Source of the DNA: a virus
Length of the DNA stretch: 38,829 nucleotides
Strand: one strand, 5' to 3'
Virus record (IMG/VR): IMGVR_UViG_3300028883_000086
Location: 1-38,829 of that record
Shown here: piece by piece, positions 2,359 to 36,542 of the stretch
Position numbering within the stretch: position 1 is the first letter of the stretch
Layout: every line of letters begins with the position of its first letter
The notes under the pieces: generated by a model
Told to the model about the DNA's origin: nothing
Database searches by the model: none
What the model saw: the letters and a program-made list of their open reading frames with translations, nothing else
Position numbers and translations under genes: made by a program

Positions 2359-2727
2359 ATGAAACGAACAACCATGATCATGGCCTTGCTTTTGGCTTTC
2401 TCTATTGTCGGGATTGCCGTCGATGCCATTGGTGCCCCGGCCGAACCGGAGAGCCGGGACGTTGAGGTCCCTTATATCCTGGATGAGGTCCCCGGAGTCG
2501 GAGATTTGACCCAGGAGGAGGAGAATATCGTCCTCCATGACATTCTCGAACTCATTTCAATTTTGCCCTGGTTTCAAAAGGCCGTTTCCTGGTTGGTGAT
2601 CGCTCTCGCTGTTTTGGCCGTTTTAAACTATATCGCCCTTCTGACACCCGTCCCGTGGGATGATGCGATAATCGGGCCGCTCTACACCCTTGTTACCCGA
2701 CTTTATTTATTGATGAGGCGACGATGA
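2359..2727 (+). CDS. Signal-peptide membrane protein, holin candidate
   Basis: 122 aa, starting one base after the previous stop. The N-terminus (MKRTTMIMALLLAFSIVGIAVDAIGA) looks like a signal peptide with an Ala-X-Gly-Ala type end. An acidic middle (about 28-62) precedes a second hydrophobic segment at about 76-96 (SWLVIALAVLAVLNYIALL), and the tail is basic (LYLLMRRR). The two hydrophobic segments and position just before the hydrolase suggest a holin or hydrolase-export partner. Its codon use looks more AT-rich than the neighbouring tail genes, hinting at separate acquisition. Confidence 0.5.
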   Translation: MKRTTMIMALLLAFSIVGIAVDAIGAPAEPESRDVEVPYILDEVPGVGDLTQEEENIVLHDILELISILPWFQKAVSWLVIALAVLAVLNYIALLTPVPWDDAIIGPLYTLVTRLYLLMRRR

Positions 2728-3167
2728 TCAACATCGAATCGCTCCGAACCCTGGCTGTCCGGTATGCCTGGCAGTTTATAGGAACGCCATACGAATGGAG
2801 CGGGGACAATGCCCAGGGGGCCGACTGTTCCGGTTTCGTGGGAATGGTCCTCCGGGCCGCCGGTCTCATGCGTAACCGTGAGGATCTCAATTCAAAAGGT
2901 CTGCATGAGAGATTTATGGAAGGCTCAACGACTGAGACCCGACCGGGGAACCTTGTGTTTTATGGGGAACTTGACAGAGGCGGGATTTCCCATGTCGGAA
3001 TCTTCATTGAGGACGGAATTATCCTGGAGGCCGCCGGCGGCAATTCGAAAACAAAAACAAAAGCCGACGCCGACCGGGATAACGCATTTGTGAGAATGCG
3101 GCCATATACCTACAGGAAAGACCTGCTCGCAATCGTTGACCCATTCAAGGCCAGCAAGAAGCACTAG
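2724..3167 (+). CDS. NlpC/P60 peptidoglycan hydrolase (endolysin candidate)
   Basis: 147 aa, ATGA overlap with the upstream gene. The NlpC/P60 catalytic pattern is clear: GTPYEWSG, then ADCSGFV with the nucleophile Cys near residue 35, RPGNLVFYG, and SHVGIFI with the catalytic His near residue 89. The family cleaves peptide stems of peptidoglycan. No signal peptide is present, so a holin or other carrier would be needed. It may be the lysin, although NlpC/P60 domains also serve in tail tips for DNA entry. Placement between membrane-protein genes and a fibre gene leaves both options open, with lysis preferred. Confidence 0.85.
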   Translation: MINIESLRTLAVRYAWQFIGTPYEWSGDNAQGADCSGFVGMVLRAAGLMRNREDLNSKGLHERFMEGSTTETRPGNLVFYGELDRGGISHVGIFIEDGIILEAAGGNSKTKTKADADRDNAFVRMRPYTYRKDLLAIVDPFKASKKH

Positions 3168-3188: not shown

Positions 3189-4046
3189 ATGATGTACCAA
3201 TGGGGAACTACGACATTGAGCATCCCCGACCAAGTCGAGGCAGATCCGGCTGGCCAGGCCGGGTACCTGGGCGGCCTTCGCCTCGAACAGATCCTGCGAA
3301 TCGTGCAGGAGAACTTCAGCGATATCGACCACGACCACGATGGCGACTACGCCGCTGCGGGGCACGACCACGATGGCGACTACCTCCGCACCGACGGGGA
3401 CGGTACCATCGAGGACGCCGGGGACAATACAATCCTACATCTGAAGCCGGGAAGCGGGAACAAGTACACCGCTTTGATGCTAGGTGAAGCAACTCAGAAC
3501 ACACAGTACATTATCGCCTACGGTCCATCTTATTCAACAGCGAACCCTACCTCGTCCTACCCGTACCGCCTGGCATTAAAAACAAACCACGCCGACGGAA
3601 CCGTCGCTATTCACACGGGAGTACAAGCTCTAGCAATCCTCGTAGACGCCTCACAAATCGCCATGTTCATGAACACCCCGACGGTGCAGGGGGAGGACAT
3701 CTACCATGAGGGAAACCTTACGATCAACGAGGTCCCTGCGGTGAACCAGATCAACCACCGGACCATGAAGATCGACATCAATGCAAGCACCGGGGCAAAC
3801 ATCGACATCCCAACGAATTGTGGCGGCCAGATCACCATCCTGGAGGATGGAGCGAATCATCAAGCATTCGGGCTATTCAACAATGAAGGCGGGACCCTGG
3901 ACTACCAGGAGCTACGGGACACGGGCGGCCACGTTTCAATGAGCGGCAATAGCATAAGGATCTACAACAACCACGGGGGAGTCGCCAGTTACTACGTCTA
4001 CATCGCAGGGCGCAACCTTTCAGGAATCACCGTGACGCCAGATTAA
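3189..4046 (+). CDS. Tail fibre-like protein with HDHDGDY repeats
   Basis: 285 aa. Two copies of a His/Asp-rich unit (DHDHDGDYAAAG, then HDHDGDYLRTDG, about residues 46-72) resemble the metal-binding HxH repeats of fibre shafts. The rest is beta-rich, with Asn/Gly/Thr-rich segments typical of fibre tips. The repeat is also visible in DNA as a 20-base direct repeat at 3331-3350 and 3364-3383. ATG 3192 is an equally possible start. It precedes the tail chaperone, so it is inserted in the tail operon. A role as fibre or receptor-binding protein is inferred. Confidence 0.6.
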   Translation: MMYQWGTTTLSIPDQVEADPAGQAGYLGGLRLEQILRIVQENFSDIDHDHDGDYAAAGHDHDGDYLRTDGDGTIEDAGDNTILHLKPGSGNKYTALMLGEATQNTQYIIAYGPSYSTANPTSSYPYRLALKTNHADGTVAIHTGVQALAILVDASQIAMFMNTPTVQGEDIYHEGNLTINEVPAVNQINHRTMKIDINASTGANIDIPTNCGGQITILEDGANHQAFGLFNNEGGTLDYQELRDTGGHVSMSGNSIRIYNNHGGVASYYVYIAGRNLSGITVTPD

Positions 4047-4057
4047 GGGAGGACGGC

Positions 4058-4528
4058 ATGAAGAAAATAGAGCGATACAAGATCGAGGGGCTCCACCCGG
4101 TCACCAAGAAGAAGGTGACCGTGAAGGCAACCCAGAAGGAGCTAACCCTGGGCCAGGACCTGGCCCTACTGGACCTCCTGGACGGATTCAGCCTGGAGGC
4201 GCTGATGCTAGAGGGGCGGAACGCCCTGCTGCGCTTCCTTTTCGACGGCGGGATCTTCGGCGAATTCATGGACATCATCATCCAGACTGAGAGCGGCGAA
4301 CGCCTCACAAGCCAGGTGGACCTGAACACCACCGGAAACAGCTTCATCGTCCCGGCGGTGGCGCATTTTTTCAGCTTAAACGGTCCAGCAATGAGGCCGT
4401 TAACAGGCTTTTTCCAGAAAAAAGACCTGCAGGAGGTGACGATGGAATTCTTCAGCAACTTGATCGTCTCTCTGCGGAAAACAGCCGCAATTCAGCAGAG
4501 CCGGGAGAGCGGGAAAGAGAGTCCATAG
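4058..4528 (+). CDS. Tail assembly chaperone (short form)
   Basis: 156 aa, directly upstream of the tape measure gene, where siphophages encode the G-type tail chaperone. The N-terminus is a small beta segment (IERYKIEGLHPVTKKKVTVKA) followed by helices. Inside the gene is a T TTT TTC heptamer in the correct frame (4366-4372), and a second frame (-1) stays open from there through 4650. This is the layout of lambda gpG and gpGT. The assignment rests on position, size and frameshift geometry. The sequence itself is not clearly recognised. Confidence 0.65.
   Translation: MKKIERYKIEGLHPVTKKKVTVKATQKELTLGQDLALLDLLDGFSLEALMLEGRNALLRFLFDGGIFGEFMDIIIQTESGERLTSQVDLNTTGNSFIVPAVAHFFSLNGPAMRPLTGFFQKKDLQEVTMEFFSNLIVSLRKTAAIQQSRESGKESP
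4366..4372 (+). promoter_or_regulatory. Candidate -1 ribosomal slippery site T TTT TTC
   Basis: Codons read CAT TTT TTC AGC, so the six T's plus C form a perfect X XXY YYZ heptamer in zero frame. A near-match C TTA AAC follows at 4375-4381. Slippage by -1 here would join 105 chaperone codons to 92 codons of the open -1 frame. Later runs (C TTT TTC at 4408-4414, GAAAAAAG at 4417-4424) are imperfect alternatives. Confidence 0.55.
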
Positions 4529-4650
4529 AGGACCTGCTCCATACGCTATCCGGCGGGGATCTGTGGAAAGCCCAAGAGATCGCCAAAAGGACAACCCTGA
4601 CAGAAGCAGCGAAATGGATTAAACAATGGGAACGCAGCAAGTCGGCATAG
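4366..4650 (+). CDS. -1 frame extension of tail chaperone (gpT-like part)
   Basis: In the -1 frame there is no stop from 4366 to TAG at 4648. The frame has no ATG, GTG or TTG between 4372 and 4650, so it could not begin independently with a usual start. After the short form ends, this frame reads ESIEDLLHTLSGGDLWKAQ and then a basic amphipathic helix ending KQWERSKSA, which looks protein-like, while the zero frame is closed. Fused at the slippery site, the product would be about 197 aa. It overlaps the tape measure start by 25 bases. By analogy the extension would recruit the tail tube or bind the tape measure. Confidence 0.6.
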   Translation, partial: FFQLKRSSNEAVNRLFPEKRPAGGDDGILQQLDRLSAENSRNSAEPGERERESIEDLLHTLSGGDLWKAQEIAKRTTLTEAAKWIKQWERSKSA

Positions 4651-6836
4651 AGATGTTTCTGGACGATGCCCGGTGGAAACGGGAATCGGGCCAATTTGAC
4701 AACCAGGTGAAGTCCTGGGCCGGCGGGCTTACAACCCAGATCAACCGGGTAACCCAGACAGGCCAGAGCCTATTCTTCATCATCAACGGATTCCAGGCCG
4801 GATTCAGGATTCTGGAAGCAGCGATGATGGGGCCGGTCAACGCCAGCAGCGACCTGGATGAGATTATAAACAAGTTTAACGTCGTCATGGGGCCGCATGC
4901 AGAAGCCGTCGAGGCATGGGCTGCCGCATACGGCGACGCTTCAATCGGGATCGGCCGCTCCAAGAGATCCCTGCTCGAAATGCTTTCCACCCTTCAGGAC
5001 ACATTCGTGCCATTGGGATACGCCAGGGGTGAAGCCGCCGAAATGAGCAAGACCCTGACGCAGCTAATCATCGACACCGCCAGCTTCAACAATAAGCTGG
5101 ATACGGAAGTCCTGGCGGATTTCCAGAGCGCCATCGTGGGCAATCATGAGACCGTAAGGAAATACGGGATCATCATCACAGAGGCCAGGCTGAAGCAGGA
5201 AGCCTACAGGGCCGGCATCATCGACACCAAGCGAGACCTGACTGCCCAGGAGAAGGTCCAGGCCCGGCTGAACCTTATCATGGATGGAACAAAGGATGCC
5301 CAGGGCGACGCCGCCAGGACAGCAAACAGCTACGCCAACGTTTCTAAGCGCCTGGACGCCATCACAGAGGACCTGGTGGGAACCCTGGGGCAAAGGTTCA
5401 TCCCAAAGGCTACCGGGGCCAAGCTGGCCATTATTGGCCTCTTCAAGTCGCTGCAGGACCTGATCGAGATCCCGGTCACAGAGCAGCTGGAGGCACAGCG
5501 CACGGAGATGGCCGACCTCTTCACCGTCGCAAAGGACCTGAACGCAACAGAGGAGATCCGCAAGGCAGCCCTGGATGAGATTAACACCAAGTACGGGGAC
5601 TACCTGCCGGCGCTGCTCACAGAGAAGACCAGCCTGCGGGACATCCGGAGAGCCCAAGAATCCGTGAACACAGCCCTCCTGGACCGCATCGCCATCGAGA
5701 TCCAGGGGGAGAAGATCCGGGCCAAGATGAAGGAGTACGACCAGCTGCTGGACAAGGAGGAGTCGTTAATCCACCAGGTAGCGGCTGCAGAGGCCAAGCT
5801 GACCCAGGAAAGGACGGATGCAGCGGAAGCGGCCAAACGGGTCAAGGACACAATTGAGAAGACAGATGGAGTGGACCCACGGGTGGCATCGGCCAACCAG
5901 GACCTCGCTGGATCGATGCAGGCCGTCGCTACCGGGGCGGACATGGCCGGCACGGGGATAATTGCTGCAGAGGCGAACCTGGCAAGCCTAAAGCAGCGCT
6001 TGGTGGACGTCCGCAAGGAACAATCTGGCCTGGTGGATGAGACAAAGGCCCTGAAGGATCGTCAGAAGGAACTAGCTGATGCTTTCGACCTGGGCCACGG
6101 CGGTGAAGGTGGGGGGAATGACCAGGAAGCCGCCAGGGAGGAGGCCGCACAAAAGGCCAGCGAAAACATCAAGCTCAACCGCCGCAAGGAAGCAGACTGG
6201 ATCACGAAGGAGAGCCAGCGGGCTGAGAAGGAGGAGGCCGCCAGGCTGGCCAAGATCGCAGAGCTTCGGCGCAAGGAGGCCAGAGAGACCGCACAGATTG
6301 AGATGGAGGAGCGGGAAAAGGTCCGGGATGCATACAGGCGGGACTTTGAGACCGCAGCGCAAGTGGCAATGCAGATCGGGGAGGCATTCTCTGGAGCCAT
6401 CAACGAGCATGGGATCAAGGGAGCCCTGAAACAGGCCCTGTACGTTTACCTGGATTACCTGCAGAAGCTGGTCCTGGCATCCCAGGTGGAGGCCGGGGTC
6501 CGGACCATGAGCGGCGATATGACGGCGCTTCTGAAGATCGCCGGGATAACAGCCGCCTTCCAGGTCGCAAAGGCCGCTATTCATGAATTCGCAGAAGGAG
6601 CAATCGTCACGGGTGGGACCGGCGGGGTGATAGCCCGGGTGGGAGAAGGCAAGCACGACGAACTGGTGGCTCCGCTGGACGGGCCAAAGTCGCCTTTTGG
6701 GCCAATGATCACAGCAATCGAGCGCCTGGAGAAGGCCGTCAGGGAAACACCTCCCACGCTGATCAACTCAAGGATCTCCGGCAAGGACCTCCTCCTGGTC
6801 ACAGAACGAGAGCAGCGGACAAGGATAGGCAACTAG
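4626..6836 (+). CDS. Tail tape measure protein
   Basis: 736 aa, short for the family, predicting a short tail. Hydrophobic helical segments in the first 250 residues (FFIINGFQAGFRILEAAMMG) are followed by a long charged coiled coil (about 290-590, rich in K/E/A/R). The C-terminus carries the pattern seen in many tape measures: FAEGAIVTGGTGGVIARVGEGKHDELVAPL (about 658-687), split here by family-typical glycine-rich turns. It sets tail length and may assist DNA entry. ATG 4653 is an in-frame alternative start. Upstream is the frameshifting chaperone and downstream are tail-tip genes. Confidence 0.85.
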   Translation: MGTQQVGIEMFLDDARWKRESGQFDNQVKSWAGGLTTQINRVTQTGQSLFFIINGFQAGFRILEAAMMGPVNASSDLDEIINKFNVVMGPHAEAVEAWAAAYGDASIGIGRSKRSLLEMLSTLQDTFVPLGYARGEAAEMSKTLTQLIIDTASFNNKLDTEVLADFQSAIVGNHETVRKYGIIITEARLKQEAYRAGIIDTKRDLTAQEKVQARLNLIMDGTKDAQGDAARTANSYANVSKRLDAITEDLVGTLGQRFIPKATGAKLAIIGLFKSLQDLIEIPVTEQLEAQRTEMADLFTVAKDLNATEEIRKAALDEINTKYGDYLPALLTEKTSLRDIRRAQESVNTALLDRIAIEIQGEKIRAKMKEYDQLLDKEESLIHQVAAAEAKLTQERTDAAEAAKRVKDTIEKTDGVDPRVASANQDLAGSMQAVATGADMAGTGIIAAEANLASLKQRLVDVRKEQSGLVDETKALKDRQKELADAFDLGHGGEGGGNDQEAAREEAAQKASENIKLNRRKEADWITKESQRAEKEEAARLAKIAELRRKEARETAQIEMEEREKVRDAYRRDFETAAQVAMQIGEAFSGAINEHGIKGALKQALYVYLDYLQKLVLASQVEAGVRTMSGDMTALLKIAGITAAFQVAKAAIHEFAEGAIVTGGTGGVIARVGEGKHDELVAPLDGPKSPFGPMITAIERLEKAVRETPPTLINSRISGKDLLLVTEREQRTRIGN

Positions 6837-11009: not shown

Positions 11010-11032
11010 GGCCGGCCTGCGGGCCGGCCTTT
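11010..11032 (+). terminator. GC-rich hairpin between early genes (attenuator-like)
   Basis: GGCCGGCC (11010-11017) pairs with its own copy at 11022-11029 around TGCG, then TTT. The stem is strong but the T run is short, so partial termination or RNA processing is more likely than full stop. Confidence 0.5.
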
Positions 11033-14163: not shown

Positions 14164-14180
14164 GCCGTTATTTTAACGGC
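14164..14180. repeat. Perfect 7-bp inverted repeat at integrase end
   Basis: GCCGTTA (14164-14170), TTT, TAACGGC (14174-14180). It overlaps the integrase stop codon. It could stabilise the mRNA or be a recombinase contact. No T run for a terminator in the leftward direction. Confidence 0.5.
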
Positions 14181-15550
14181 AAATTGTAGCGCTTTTCAAA
14201 AGGCGGACGCAGTATAACCTTCACCCGCCTGGGTGACAACAGGATTTCAGAGACCACCAGGGAGATCACCTCCCGCATTTCCGGCTGATTGCGCCAATCC
14301 AGATCCAGATCCATGACCCATTCCAGGGAACCAGCCTCCAGCGGCTTTGTGGCCTCGGCAATCGAGACCTCTACCTGCTGCTTTTCAGCCCTGAGCGCCC
14401 GCAATTGGGAACGACCTTCGGATTCAGATACCAGATCGTCCAGGATGAGACCCAGGACCCGCTGGATTTTACCGTCAACCAGGTCCAGCCGCCGGGACAG
14501 ATCGTCCAGGACACCAGATCGACCACCATCCAGGTCAACGCCCTTAAGCCCACGAACCACAGCCCGGGACACGGCCTCGTCTACAATGTCGCACGGGACG
14601 TACCTGCGGGAATTGCACGGCACGCCGGATTGGATCGATGAGCAGGCATAATACTGCAGACGGGTCCCATCCTTCCGCTTCCGACCAGGAAAGGATTTGA
14701 CCGTGGAGCCACAAGACAGGCACCTGAAGACGCCCAAGCCGGTCAGGAGATGAGTAGACACCCCGACAACCTGTCGAGCACGTCGGGCGGATTTCGCAGC
14801 GAGAACAGCATCACAGAGAGAGCCGTCCAGTATTGCCGGCCATTCAGCTGGCACAATTTCACCTTCATAGGTTTCTACCCGTCCAGAATAGAAAAGGATC
14901 TTCCGACGCTCGAGCATCCGCCGGATCTGGCGGGCCGAAAGCTGGTGGTCCAGGACCCGCTCTATTTTCGCCGGCGACGATTTCAGGGCCAATTCATACA
15001 CCCGGGTCACCACCGGGACCGCCTCCGGATCTGGGAGAAGTGACCGGGACGCCGGATCGAAACGATATCCGAACGGGGCATGGCCACCAAGCCACCCGCC
15101 GCCGGCACGTTTCTCCACCCGGCCAGCCTGGCACCGCTCGAGAATTCGCTTTCTCTCATAGTCGGCAATTGAACCAAAGAGATTCTGGGTCAGATCGTGT
15201 TCGGAGGAGGAGGGATCGAAGTCCTGGGCCGGGGTGGCAATCCGGACCCCGGCATTTTTCAGGGATTCACGGATGAACAGGTTGTCGGCCAGATTTCGAG
15301 ACAGCCGGTCCAGGGCAACGACCAGGACCACCCGGAAAAGGCCAGAATCGGCATCGTCCAGGAGATCCTGCATCTTTGGGCGGCCGGCAAGGGACTCACC
15401 AGACACCCCTCCCTCGTTGTATTCACGAATTACATGGAGATCCCGGGAAGCGGCCAGGTCACGAAGGGCACGGACCTGGGCATCCAGGGAGAACTTCTCC
15501 GCCTGGTCGGCCGTGGATACCCGGACATATATGGCTGCCGGAACAGCCAC
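14168..15550 (-). CDS. Large serine integrase
   Basis: 460 aa, minus strand, GTG start with GGGAGGTG upstream. The resolvase N-terminal domain has YVRVST (catalytic Ser near residue 12), GGVSGESLAGRP, and VVALDRLSR with the conserved Arg. The recombinase domain follows (GGHAPFGYR), then a zinc ribbon (CLSCGS, later YACSS and CNSRRY) and a coiled-coil region. It catalyses attP x attB integration. Length is normal for the family (450-600). It begins 9 bases after the repressor stop, so the two are cotranscribed. The nearby tRNA relic could be part of attP. Confidence 0.93.
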   Translation of the reverse strand: MAVPAAIYVRVSTADQAEKFSLDAQVRALRDLAASRDLHVIREYNEGGVSGESLAGRPKMQDLLDDADSGLFRVVLVVALDRLSRNLADNLFIRESLKNAGVRIATPAQDFDPSSSEHDLTQNLFGSIADYERKRILERCQAGRVEKRAGGGWLGGHAPFGYRFDPASRSLLPDPEAVPVVTRVYELALKSSPAKIERVLDHQLSARQIRRMLERRKILFYSGRVETYEGEIVPAEWPAILDGSLCDAVLAAKSARRARQVVGVSTHLLTGLGVFRCLSCGSTVKSFPGRKRKDGTRLQYYACSSIQSGVPCNSRRYVPCDIVDEAVSRAVVRGLKGVDLDGGRSGVLDDLSRRLDLVDGKIQRVLGLILDDLVSESEGRSQLRALRAEKQQVEVSIAEATKPLEAGSLEWVMDLDLDWRNQPEMREVISLVVSEILLSPRRVKVILRPPFEKRYNLPLK

Positions 15551-22896: not shown

Positions 22897-24198
22897 ATGA
22901 AGACCCTCGACACCATATTAAGAGAGCCATCCAGTATCAAGCCATACGAGAACAACCCACGCCACAACGATGACTCCGTGGACACCGTCGCCGCATCCAT
23001 TCAAGAATTCGGATTCAGGCAACCCATCGTAGTGGACAAGGACAGCGTGATCGTTATCGGCCACACCCGCTGGAAAGCATCCCTGCGCCTGGGCCTGGAG
23101 GCGGTCCCGGTCCACATTGCAGAAGACCTGACACCGGAACAGATCGCTGCCCTCCGCATTATGGACAACAAATCGCATGACAGCAGCGAGTGGGACCTCA
23201 CCAAGCTGGCCATCGAGCTACAGGCCCTGGCCGACATGGACATCGACCTGGAGTTAACCGGATTTGACATGGACGATATAGACCGGATTACCGGGCGGCA
23301 CGAACAGATCATCGAAGGCCAGGCAGATCCGGACAAGGTCCCGCCATTGAATGAGATCCCGGAACGAGTGAAGGCCGGCGACGTCTGGATCATGGGGGAC
23401 CACGCCCTTATCTGCGGCGATGCACGGGACGAAAAGGCATACCGCCGCCTGCTGAACCTGGGGAAATCAGCAGCCCTCTCCAGCGCTTCTGTTGGAATCC
23501 TCCTGACAGATCCACCATATAACGTGGACTACGAAGGAGCAGCGGGGAAAATAGCCAATGACAAGCAGGCCGGGCCGGCATTCCGACGCTTTCTGACAGA
23601 TGCCCTCCGGCTTTCGAGCGCCACCATGAAGCCAGGAGCATGCGCCTACGTCTTCCACGCCGACACAGAAGGCCTGAATTTCCGCCAGGCATTCATCGAA
23701 AGCGGCTTTGAGCAGAAACAGACCCTGATCTGGAACAAACAGGCCGCCGTCCTGGGCCGCCAGGACTACAACTGGAAGCATGAACCCATCCTCTACGGAT
23801 GGAAGCCAGGTGGGCCGCATTACTTCTCGGAGGATTTTACCCAAACCACCGTCTGGACAGAACCAGACAACCTGGACGAACTGGACGAAGACCAGCTAAG
23901 GGCCCTGGTAAGCGAAATGCGGGCACAGATCCCGGTGACGGTCATAGACCAGGACCGGCCGACAAACAACGCCCTGCACCCAACCATGAAGCCCGTGGAC
24001 CTTCTGGTGCAGCTGCTAAAGAACAGCAGCAGGCCCGGGGACCTGGTCCTGGACAACTTCGCCGGATCGGGATCGACCCTGATGGCCGGCGCAATGCTCA
24101 AGCGAAACGTAAGGCTTATCGAGCTAGAGCCTCGGAACTGCGATGTGATCATCCACAGATGGGAGGAGTGGAGTGGCGACAAGGCCAGGAAGGGGTAA
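22897..24198 (+). CDS. ParB-like nuclease domain fused to DNA methyltransferase
   Basis: 433 aa, RBS AAAGGAG. The N-terminus (about 12-100) is ParB/Sulfiredoxin-like: ENNPRHNDDSVDTVAASI, GFRQPIVVD, VIGHTRWKA. The C-terminal methyltransferase has DPPY at 205-208 and FAGSGST at 388-394; motif IV before motif I is the beta class (N6-adenine or N4-cytosine). The enzyme could methylate phage DNA against restriction or mark packaging sites. It starts the late block directly upstream of the terminase genes, a common phage arrangement. Confidence 0.88.
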   Translation: MKTLDTILREPSSIKPYENNPRHNDDSVDTVAASIQEFGFRQPIVVDKDSVIVIGHTRWKASLRLGLEAVPVHIAEDLTPEQIAALRIMDNKSHDSSEWDLTKLAIELQALADMDIDLELTGFDMDDIDRITGRHEQIIEGQADPDKVPPLNEIPERVKAGDVWIMGDHALICGDARDEKAYRRLLNLGKSAALSSASVGILLTDPPYNVDYEGAAGKIANDKQAGPAFRRFLTDALRLSSATMKPGACAYVFHADTEGLNFRQAFIESGFEQKQTLIWNKQAAVLGRQDYNWKHEPILYGWKPGGPHYFSEDFTQTTVWTEPDNLDELDEDQLRALVSEMRAQIPVTVIDQDRPTNNALHPTMKPVDLLVQLLKNSSRPGDLVLDNFAGSGSTLMAGAMLKRNVRLIELEPRNCDVIIHRWEEWSGDKARKG

Positions 24199-35746: not shown

Positions 35747-36120
35747 GCAACTACTCGGACCAGAAGGACCGGATCGACACCGTGATGGACGGCCTGGGAT
35801 ACGAGGAGGCTCCAACCCTGGTGCACAACGAGACAGCGCCCAGGACCGGGATACACAAGGAATACAGCGTCCTGGTGGCCGGAATGGCAGAACAGAAGCT
35901 GACGCAATCGCTTATGGTAGAGGTCCCGTGGGACCTGGCCGTGATCGTGACCTACAGCACGCCAAACCCGGCAAAGTACAAGGAAGCCATCGAGAACCTG
36001 GAGGCCGCCATTACAGGCCTCGCCGCCATTGGGGAGGTTGAACCACCCCTGGAGCCAGAACTGGACCAAGAGCAAGGAATCCTCACGGCGGAAATACCAA
36101 TTAGATCAAGGAGGCAATAA
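35743..36120 (+). CDS. Tail terminator candidate
   Basis: 125 aa, ATGA overlap. Alpha/beta sequence (SVLVAGMAEQKLTQSLMVEV, then ITGLAAIGEVE). Order capsid, connector, terminator, tube is common. No direct motif; call by position. Confidence 0.5.
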   Translation: MSNYSDQKDRIDTVMDGLGYEEAPTLVHNETAPRTGIHKEYSVLVAGMAEQKLTQSLMVEVPWDLAVIVTYSTPNPAKYKEAIENLEAAITGLAAIGEVEPPLEPELDQEQGILTAEIPIRSRRQ

Positions 36121-36542
36121 TGCCCGGCATCGACAAAACCAAACTTCTGAAAGGACCCATCGAGGTCATCCTGGGCGACGATAGCGATATCACCATCAGC
36201 CCGGTGCCAGAGGTCCAGCTGCGGGTCACGGCCAACGAAAGTGAAGAAACCCTGTCGGACGGGTCCGGCGATACCCACGTGACCGGCCGCAAGGTTGAAC
36301 TGATCGTGCCCCTGGATGAATTCGACCCTGCAGGAGCAGACGCAGCAGAGGCCCTGAAGGGAGAAAAGGTCACCCTCGAATTCCTCGACGTTTCGGCACC
36401 AAACAGCCTGGTCACCATCGACGATGTGGACCAGATCGTTGTGGATCTCGAAGGGACCCGCCAGCAGATCAAGATCACCAAATACGGCCATGCAGCCAGC
36501 ACCCTCGCCAGCCTGCTGACCGTCGGTGCACCGCCTGCCTAG
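36120..36542 (+). CDS. Major tail tube protein candidate
   Basis: 140 aa, start overlaps the previous stop, strong AGGAGG upstream. Beta-rich (VQLRVTANESEETLS, KVELIVPLDEF, KVTLEFLDV) with alternating polar/hydrophobic strands as in tail tubes. Usually the tail chaperone follows; here the fibre and lysis genes stand between. Confidence 0.5.
   Translation: MPGIDKTKLLKGPIEVILGDDSDITISPVPEVQLRVTANESEETLSDGSGDTHVTGRKVELIVPLDEFDPAGADAAEALKGEKVTLEFLDVSAPNSLVTIDDVDQIVVDLEGTRQQIKITKYGHAASTLASLLTVGAPPA

Follow-up and report, generated by a model that had tools for sequence, protein, structure and literature searches.

In phage lambda, a single gene lying before the tape measure yields two products through a -1 slip on a heptamer, G GGA AAG, into a T frame that has no start of its own. 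The role of gpG and gpGT has been reviewed, and the shift takes place near the 3' end of g (PMC5009743). Phage P2 uses a T6G site for its frameshift, and E' extends 37 nt back into E (PMC3931495). Mean distances between slip and stop in the PRFect work are 26 nt for SEA-PHAGES and 36 nt for the set of Xu et al. (PMC10885494).

The locus described here lies in a 38.8-kb virus record with 57.6% GC, the whole of which we call the window. Its sequence leads us to conclude that positions 4058-4650 very probably hold a -1 programmed frameshift of the lambda G/GT type, in a long-overlap, dual-coding variant. As in lambda, two products would come from one gene before the tape measure, by a -1 heptamer slip into a T frame lacking its own start; unlike in lambda, the heptamer is T TTT TTC, and 156 nt, or 51 sense codons, separate the slip from the zero-frame stop, a stretch over which both frames are conserved. 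G/GT systems typically, though not by definition, slip close to the 3' end of G; the window departs from this. The earlier note had likened the arrangement to lambda G/GT, which holds for the place just before the tape measure but not for the slip-to-stop distance, which it missed, or for the constraint on both frames. With P2 E/E+E', the locus shares a slippery run of six Ts, in phase and situated in the tail chaperone gene that precedes the tape measure, and a -1 frame without a ribosome-binding site; it differs in ending the run in C rather than G and in the length of the overlap, and P2 is contractile-tailed. Comparison of the window with lambda G/GT and with P2 E/E' found no sequence similarity. 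The mechanism would be one already known, and the long, doubly selected overlap is a variant when measured against the published mean distances. The features of the locus are as follows.

4047..4053, + strand: Shine-Dalgarno-like GGGAGGA ahead of the G start codon (read from sequence).
4058..4528, + strand: zero-frame ORF of 156 aa, putative G-type tail assembly chaperone (identity to L031, position before the tape measure).
4354..4361, + strand: GGCGGTGG, Shine-Dalgarno-like with 1 mismatch to GGAGGTG, candidate stimulator (read from sequence).
4366..4372, + strand: slippery heptamer T TTT TTC, phased for a -1 tandem slip (aligned T9 in L031).
4372..4650, + strand: predicted T-type extension of 92 aa in the -1 frame, read after the slip (identity to L031, conservation above the null).
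4373..4525, + strand: dual-coding overlap, comprising the 51-codon unshifted G C-terminus and the fusion linker in the -1 frame (two-frame conservation).
4379..4401, + strand: candidate stimulatory hairpin, beginning 6 nt past the heptamer (folding z-scores).
4626..6836, + strand: tape-measure protein ORF of 736 aa, starting within the -1 ORF (tape-measure family matches, 43% identity to L031).

What the earlier note had read from this locus is borne out. The codons at 4364-4372 are CAT TTT TTC, so that the X of the heptamer occupies codon position 3, the correct phase for a tandem slip in the zero frame. An open -1 frame runs from 4291 to a stop at 4648-4650, its end being the one that had been claimed, and over 4291-4650 it contains no ATG, GTG or TTG, only ATT, ATA, CTG and ATC codons. 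The fusion length of about 197 aa also agrees (105 + 92 = 197 aa). The peptides diagnostic of the -1 frame, which had been placed downstream of 4528, should instead start at 4372; the predicted junction peptide of the fusion is VAHFFQLK, and zero-frame peptides past the slip, such as DLQEVTMEFFSNLIVSLR, would mark the G-only C-terminus. Within the G ORF, no canonical slippery heptamer apart from T TTT TTC is in phase; 4040-4660 holds just two further XXXYYYZ strings (Y = A or T), AAAAAAG (4418) and GGGAAAG (4511), and both are out of phase. In the 24 other genes of the window, in-phase heptamers number 8 per 8318 codons, for a chance expectation of 0.08 in the 79-codon overlap, and none of those 8318 codons contributes an in-phase T TTT TTC.

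Under this reading, the gene at 4058 would give rise to two tail-assembly chaperones. The majority of ribosomes would stay in frame 0 and make the 156-aa G-type protein; a minority would slip by -1 on T TTT TTC at 4366-4372, the two Phe-tRNAs re-pairing on TTT TTT, and would end at 4650 with the 197-aa G-T fusion. If they act as their lambda counterparts do, G and G-T would coat the product of the adjoining tape-measure gene, the T part would recruit the tail-tube protein, and both chaperones would depart before the tail is completed. We infer slippage at 4366-4372, its efficiency and the chaperone role alike. The GGCGGTG stretch before the heptamer is a possible slip stimulator to judge by its sequence, and the hairpin at 4379..4401 (z -1.67 over 80 nt, -2.32 over 128 nt) is only suggestive as one. 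No downstream RNA structure is common to the window and L031, the hairpin being weak in the former and absent from the latter.

Family matches identify a Gp13-like capsid protein, a terminase, a tape-measure protein and a serine recombinase among the window's genes. The recombinase (14168-15550, - strand) is of the large serine type, with Resolvase and zinc ribbon domains, and suggests a temperate phage. A separate ORF at 22897-24198 joins a ParB N-terminal domain to an N6/N4 DNA methylase.

L031, part of a 33.6-kb IMG/VR contig, is syntenic with the window, and homologue evidence for the window G rests on this single pair: HMMs of G and T searched against the other loci gave L031 as their only significant match. 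The two tape measures share 43% identity, the G frames 37% (residues 26-155 of 156) and the -1 frames about 40-42%. Aligned with TTT TTC of the window are the L031 codons TTT TTT TTT, nine Ts in frame at 11014-11022, preceded by GGAGGT where the window has its GGCGGTG stretch. The -1 frame of L031 is closed by stops 5' of the aligned site, and a shift in L031 must therefore come after ~10968. The earlier note had called for alignment with homologues to reveal a conserved slippery run; L031 provides it, the run lying in frame where the codons align, and its -1 frame is open and conserved above the level forced by the zero frame. The outcome named there as refuting, homologues lacking an open -1 frame or a slippery sequence, did not arise in L031. 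The slip run and both reading frames are conserved within the anatomy listed above. Since the T9 of L031 is aligned and the -1 conservation exceeds that forced level, the two-frame layout is not a product of chance.

Two ORFs at 2359-3167 of the window, of which the second encodes an NlpC/P60 peptidase, share 88-89% identity with L031, versus ~40% for the adjoining G, T and tape measure; this sharp mosaic boundary suggests a recent exchange. Between the NlpC/P60 gene and G the window carries a 285-aa ORF (3189-4046) that L031 lacks, G following directly after the peptidase there. L031 7173-7985 holds two tandem homologues of the window ORF at 36120-36542, which suggests a gene duplication.

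Selection on the -1 frame was assessed with a resampling null in which the zero-frame proteins of the window and L031 were held fixed, synonymous codons were redrawn from each phage's own usage, and the -1 frame was rescored by BLOSUM62 over 38 codons 3' of the slip. The observed score of 65 was reached in 0/20,000 draws (null mean -4, sd 15). A permutation null that shuffled the existing synonymous codons gave 18 +/- 12, and 65 was reached in 2/20,000. In the converse test, with the -1 frame fixed, the zero frame proved conserved (p=0.00075). On this one pair of sequences, positions 4373-4525 thus look translated in two frames, both of them apparently under selection. Sliding windows showed no -1 excess immediately 5' of the heptamer and a strong one between 4384 and ~4494 (z 2.4-3.8). 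Three far-upstream windows, at 4132-4170 and 4180-4230, showed a milder excess (p 0.015-0.024); these are closed by -1 stops and were used as the noise level.

Tape-measure relatives were gathered from viral and genome contigs, and the DNA 5' of each tape measure was searched for a matching arrangement. This revealed a large group, with tape measures homologous to that of the window, whose members (L042, L078, L105, L116 and others) resemble the window in carrying T TTT TTC or T TTT TTT at about residue 100 of G, tens of zero-frame codons before its end, and in having a -1 ORF that reaches the tape measure. L042 is a provirus on a Planctomycetaceae MAG contig. The group differs from the window in that the slip mostly follows a conserved Asp (DFFP) and that most members have a low-complexity -1 linker. 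Profile-profile comparison detected no homology between the window G and the G proteins of this group, and such homology was dropped for want of that support, though a multiple alignment can put the FF codons in one column. The group's T partner shows a resemblance to Phage_tail_T of Pfam (E 7e-5, slightly short of the curated cut-off), and among the G proteins of the T TTT TTC survey loci, that of L048 matches Phage_TAC_15 and that of L019 matches tail chaperone PHROGs.

In 22 loci, none of 43 other Phe-Phe pairs was spelled T TTT TTC, a count for which the loci had been picked because they carry the heptamer. The unbiased test was a profile built solely from sequence 5' of the slip site, with the motif excluded, which retrieved 40 chaperone ORFs at E<1e-3, upstream of related tape measures. 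Where these ORFs have FF at the slip point, its codons nearly always read T TTT TTC or T TTT TTT, 114-264 nt ahead of the zero-frame stop; L121 has TTC TTC, and six members (L072, L083, L111, L113, L043 and L106) have no FF there. An alternative in-phase heptamer opens a long -1 frame in L072 (GGGTTTT) and L106 (AAAAAAA), and L122 has TTTTTTT/TTTTTTG beside its own CTTTTTT; an in-phase heptamer was sought in L111, L083, L043, L113 and L121 and none was found. Third-codon-position differences were lower 3' than 5' of the slip in 12/12 close pairs compared. Four pairs gave 136/380 before versus 40/277 after (Fisher p=5e-10, an optimistic value because the pairs are not independent and these four were picked by hand). 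We give roughly even chances to a broader proposition, that throughout a wide range of phages, a planctomycete-associated provirus among them, the slip occurs 35-88 codons short of the G terminus, the fusion linker and the unshifted G tail are different protein segments encoded by the same DNA and separately selected, and the G tail has a function of its own that is absent from the fusion.

These data also bear on other ways of producing the same layout. A frame change later in the overlap, for instance on G AAA AAA G at 4417-4424, would make the heptamer at 4366 incidental, and it draws on the A6 run at 4418-4423 and on codon statistics, which favour frame 0 up to ~4480. Dual coding explains that codon signal equally well, however; the phase of the A6 run does not suit a canonical tandem slip, no such run stands at the corresponding place in L031, and the -1 conservation starts at ~4384, ahead of the run in the window. 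We regard this as very unlikely. The T part might instead be a separate protein made by re-initiation at a rare start such as the ATA at 4525, which falls exactly on the G stop codon (ATAG) and would give a 41-aa product including the best conserved part of T. Yet ATA starts are very rare, L031 has no ATG, GTG or TTG at the corresponding place, and the -1 conservation over 4384-4494 would be left unexplained, all of which makes re-initiation highly improbable. Because the -1 excess begins just 3' of the heptamer in the pair of window and L031, the T run is where we locate the slip, in preference to the A6 run and to a re-initiation site.

A T run invites the thought that it is RNA polymerase that slips, yielding mRNAs of mixed length, and with nine consecutive Ts, as in L031, slippage by the polymerase is plausible. 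The run in the window has six Ts only, however, and most of the larger group hold exactly T6C in phase, a tandem-slip heptamer rather than a long run, so that we give transcriptional slippage a very small probability, between those of a later slip and of re-initiation. The least probable of these readings by our estimate, and nearly negligible, is a single gene split by sequencing or assembly error or by mutation. The record is indeed a single metagenomic contig, but L031, at ~40% protein identity, keeps both frames in the same register and both conserved, which contradicts this reading unless L031 happens to carry an identical error. Ribosomal slippage at T TTT TTC is the reading retained here.

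Neither the window G and T nor those of L031 matched a Pfam or PHROG family. Chaperone families of this kind diverge beyond recognition (PMC5009743), and a missing family match therefore does not rule out G/GT membership. Relatives were likewise not found for the window G by tblastn against the annotated phage collection, for G by single-protein scans of viral and genome contigs, or for T by such a scan of viral contigs, and capsid-protein relatives yielded no G homologues. L130, an NlpC/P60 relative, was rejected because the tail module is absent. The structure models (pLDDT 60) were too weak to use; Foldseek gave named tail assembly chaperones only at E 0.1-0.3 and nothing in the PDB.

One frameshift caller, which relies on how far the slip is from the in-frame stop, is reported to miss cases in which this distance is large (PMC10885494), and members of the long-overlap group are therefore likely to be missed or annotated as lone hypothetical proteins. 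In the record of the archaeal Methanoculleus virus Blf4, annotation ahead of the tape measure is limited to a 53-aa ORF; at 4547-4831 it has a 94-aa -1 frame that overlaps the preceding ORF, with an in-phase A AAA AAC at 4565, and its sequence makes this a probable unannotated chaperone frameshift.

A dual-coding region of this natural kind would make a G-only C-terminus separable from the T domain for testing. If the broader proposition is true, the G tail would do something that the fusion does not; lambda GT, by contrast, is approximately G plus T.
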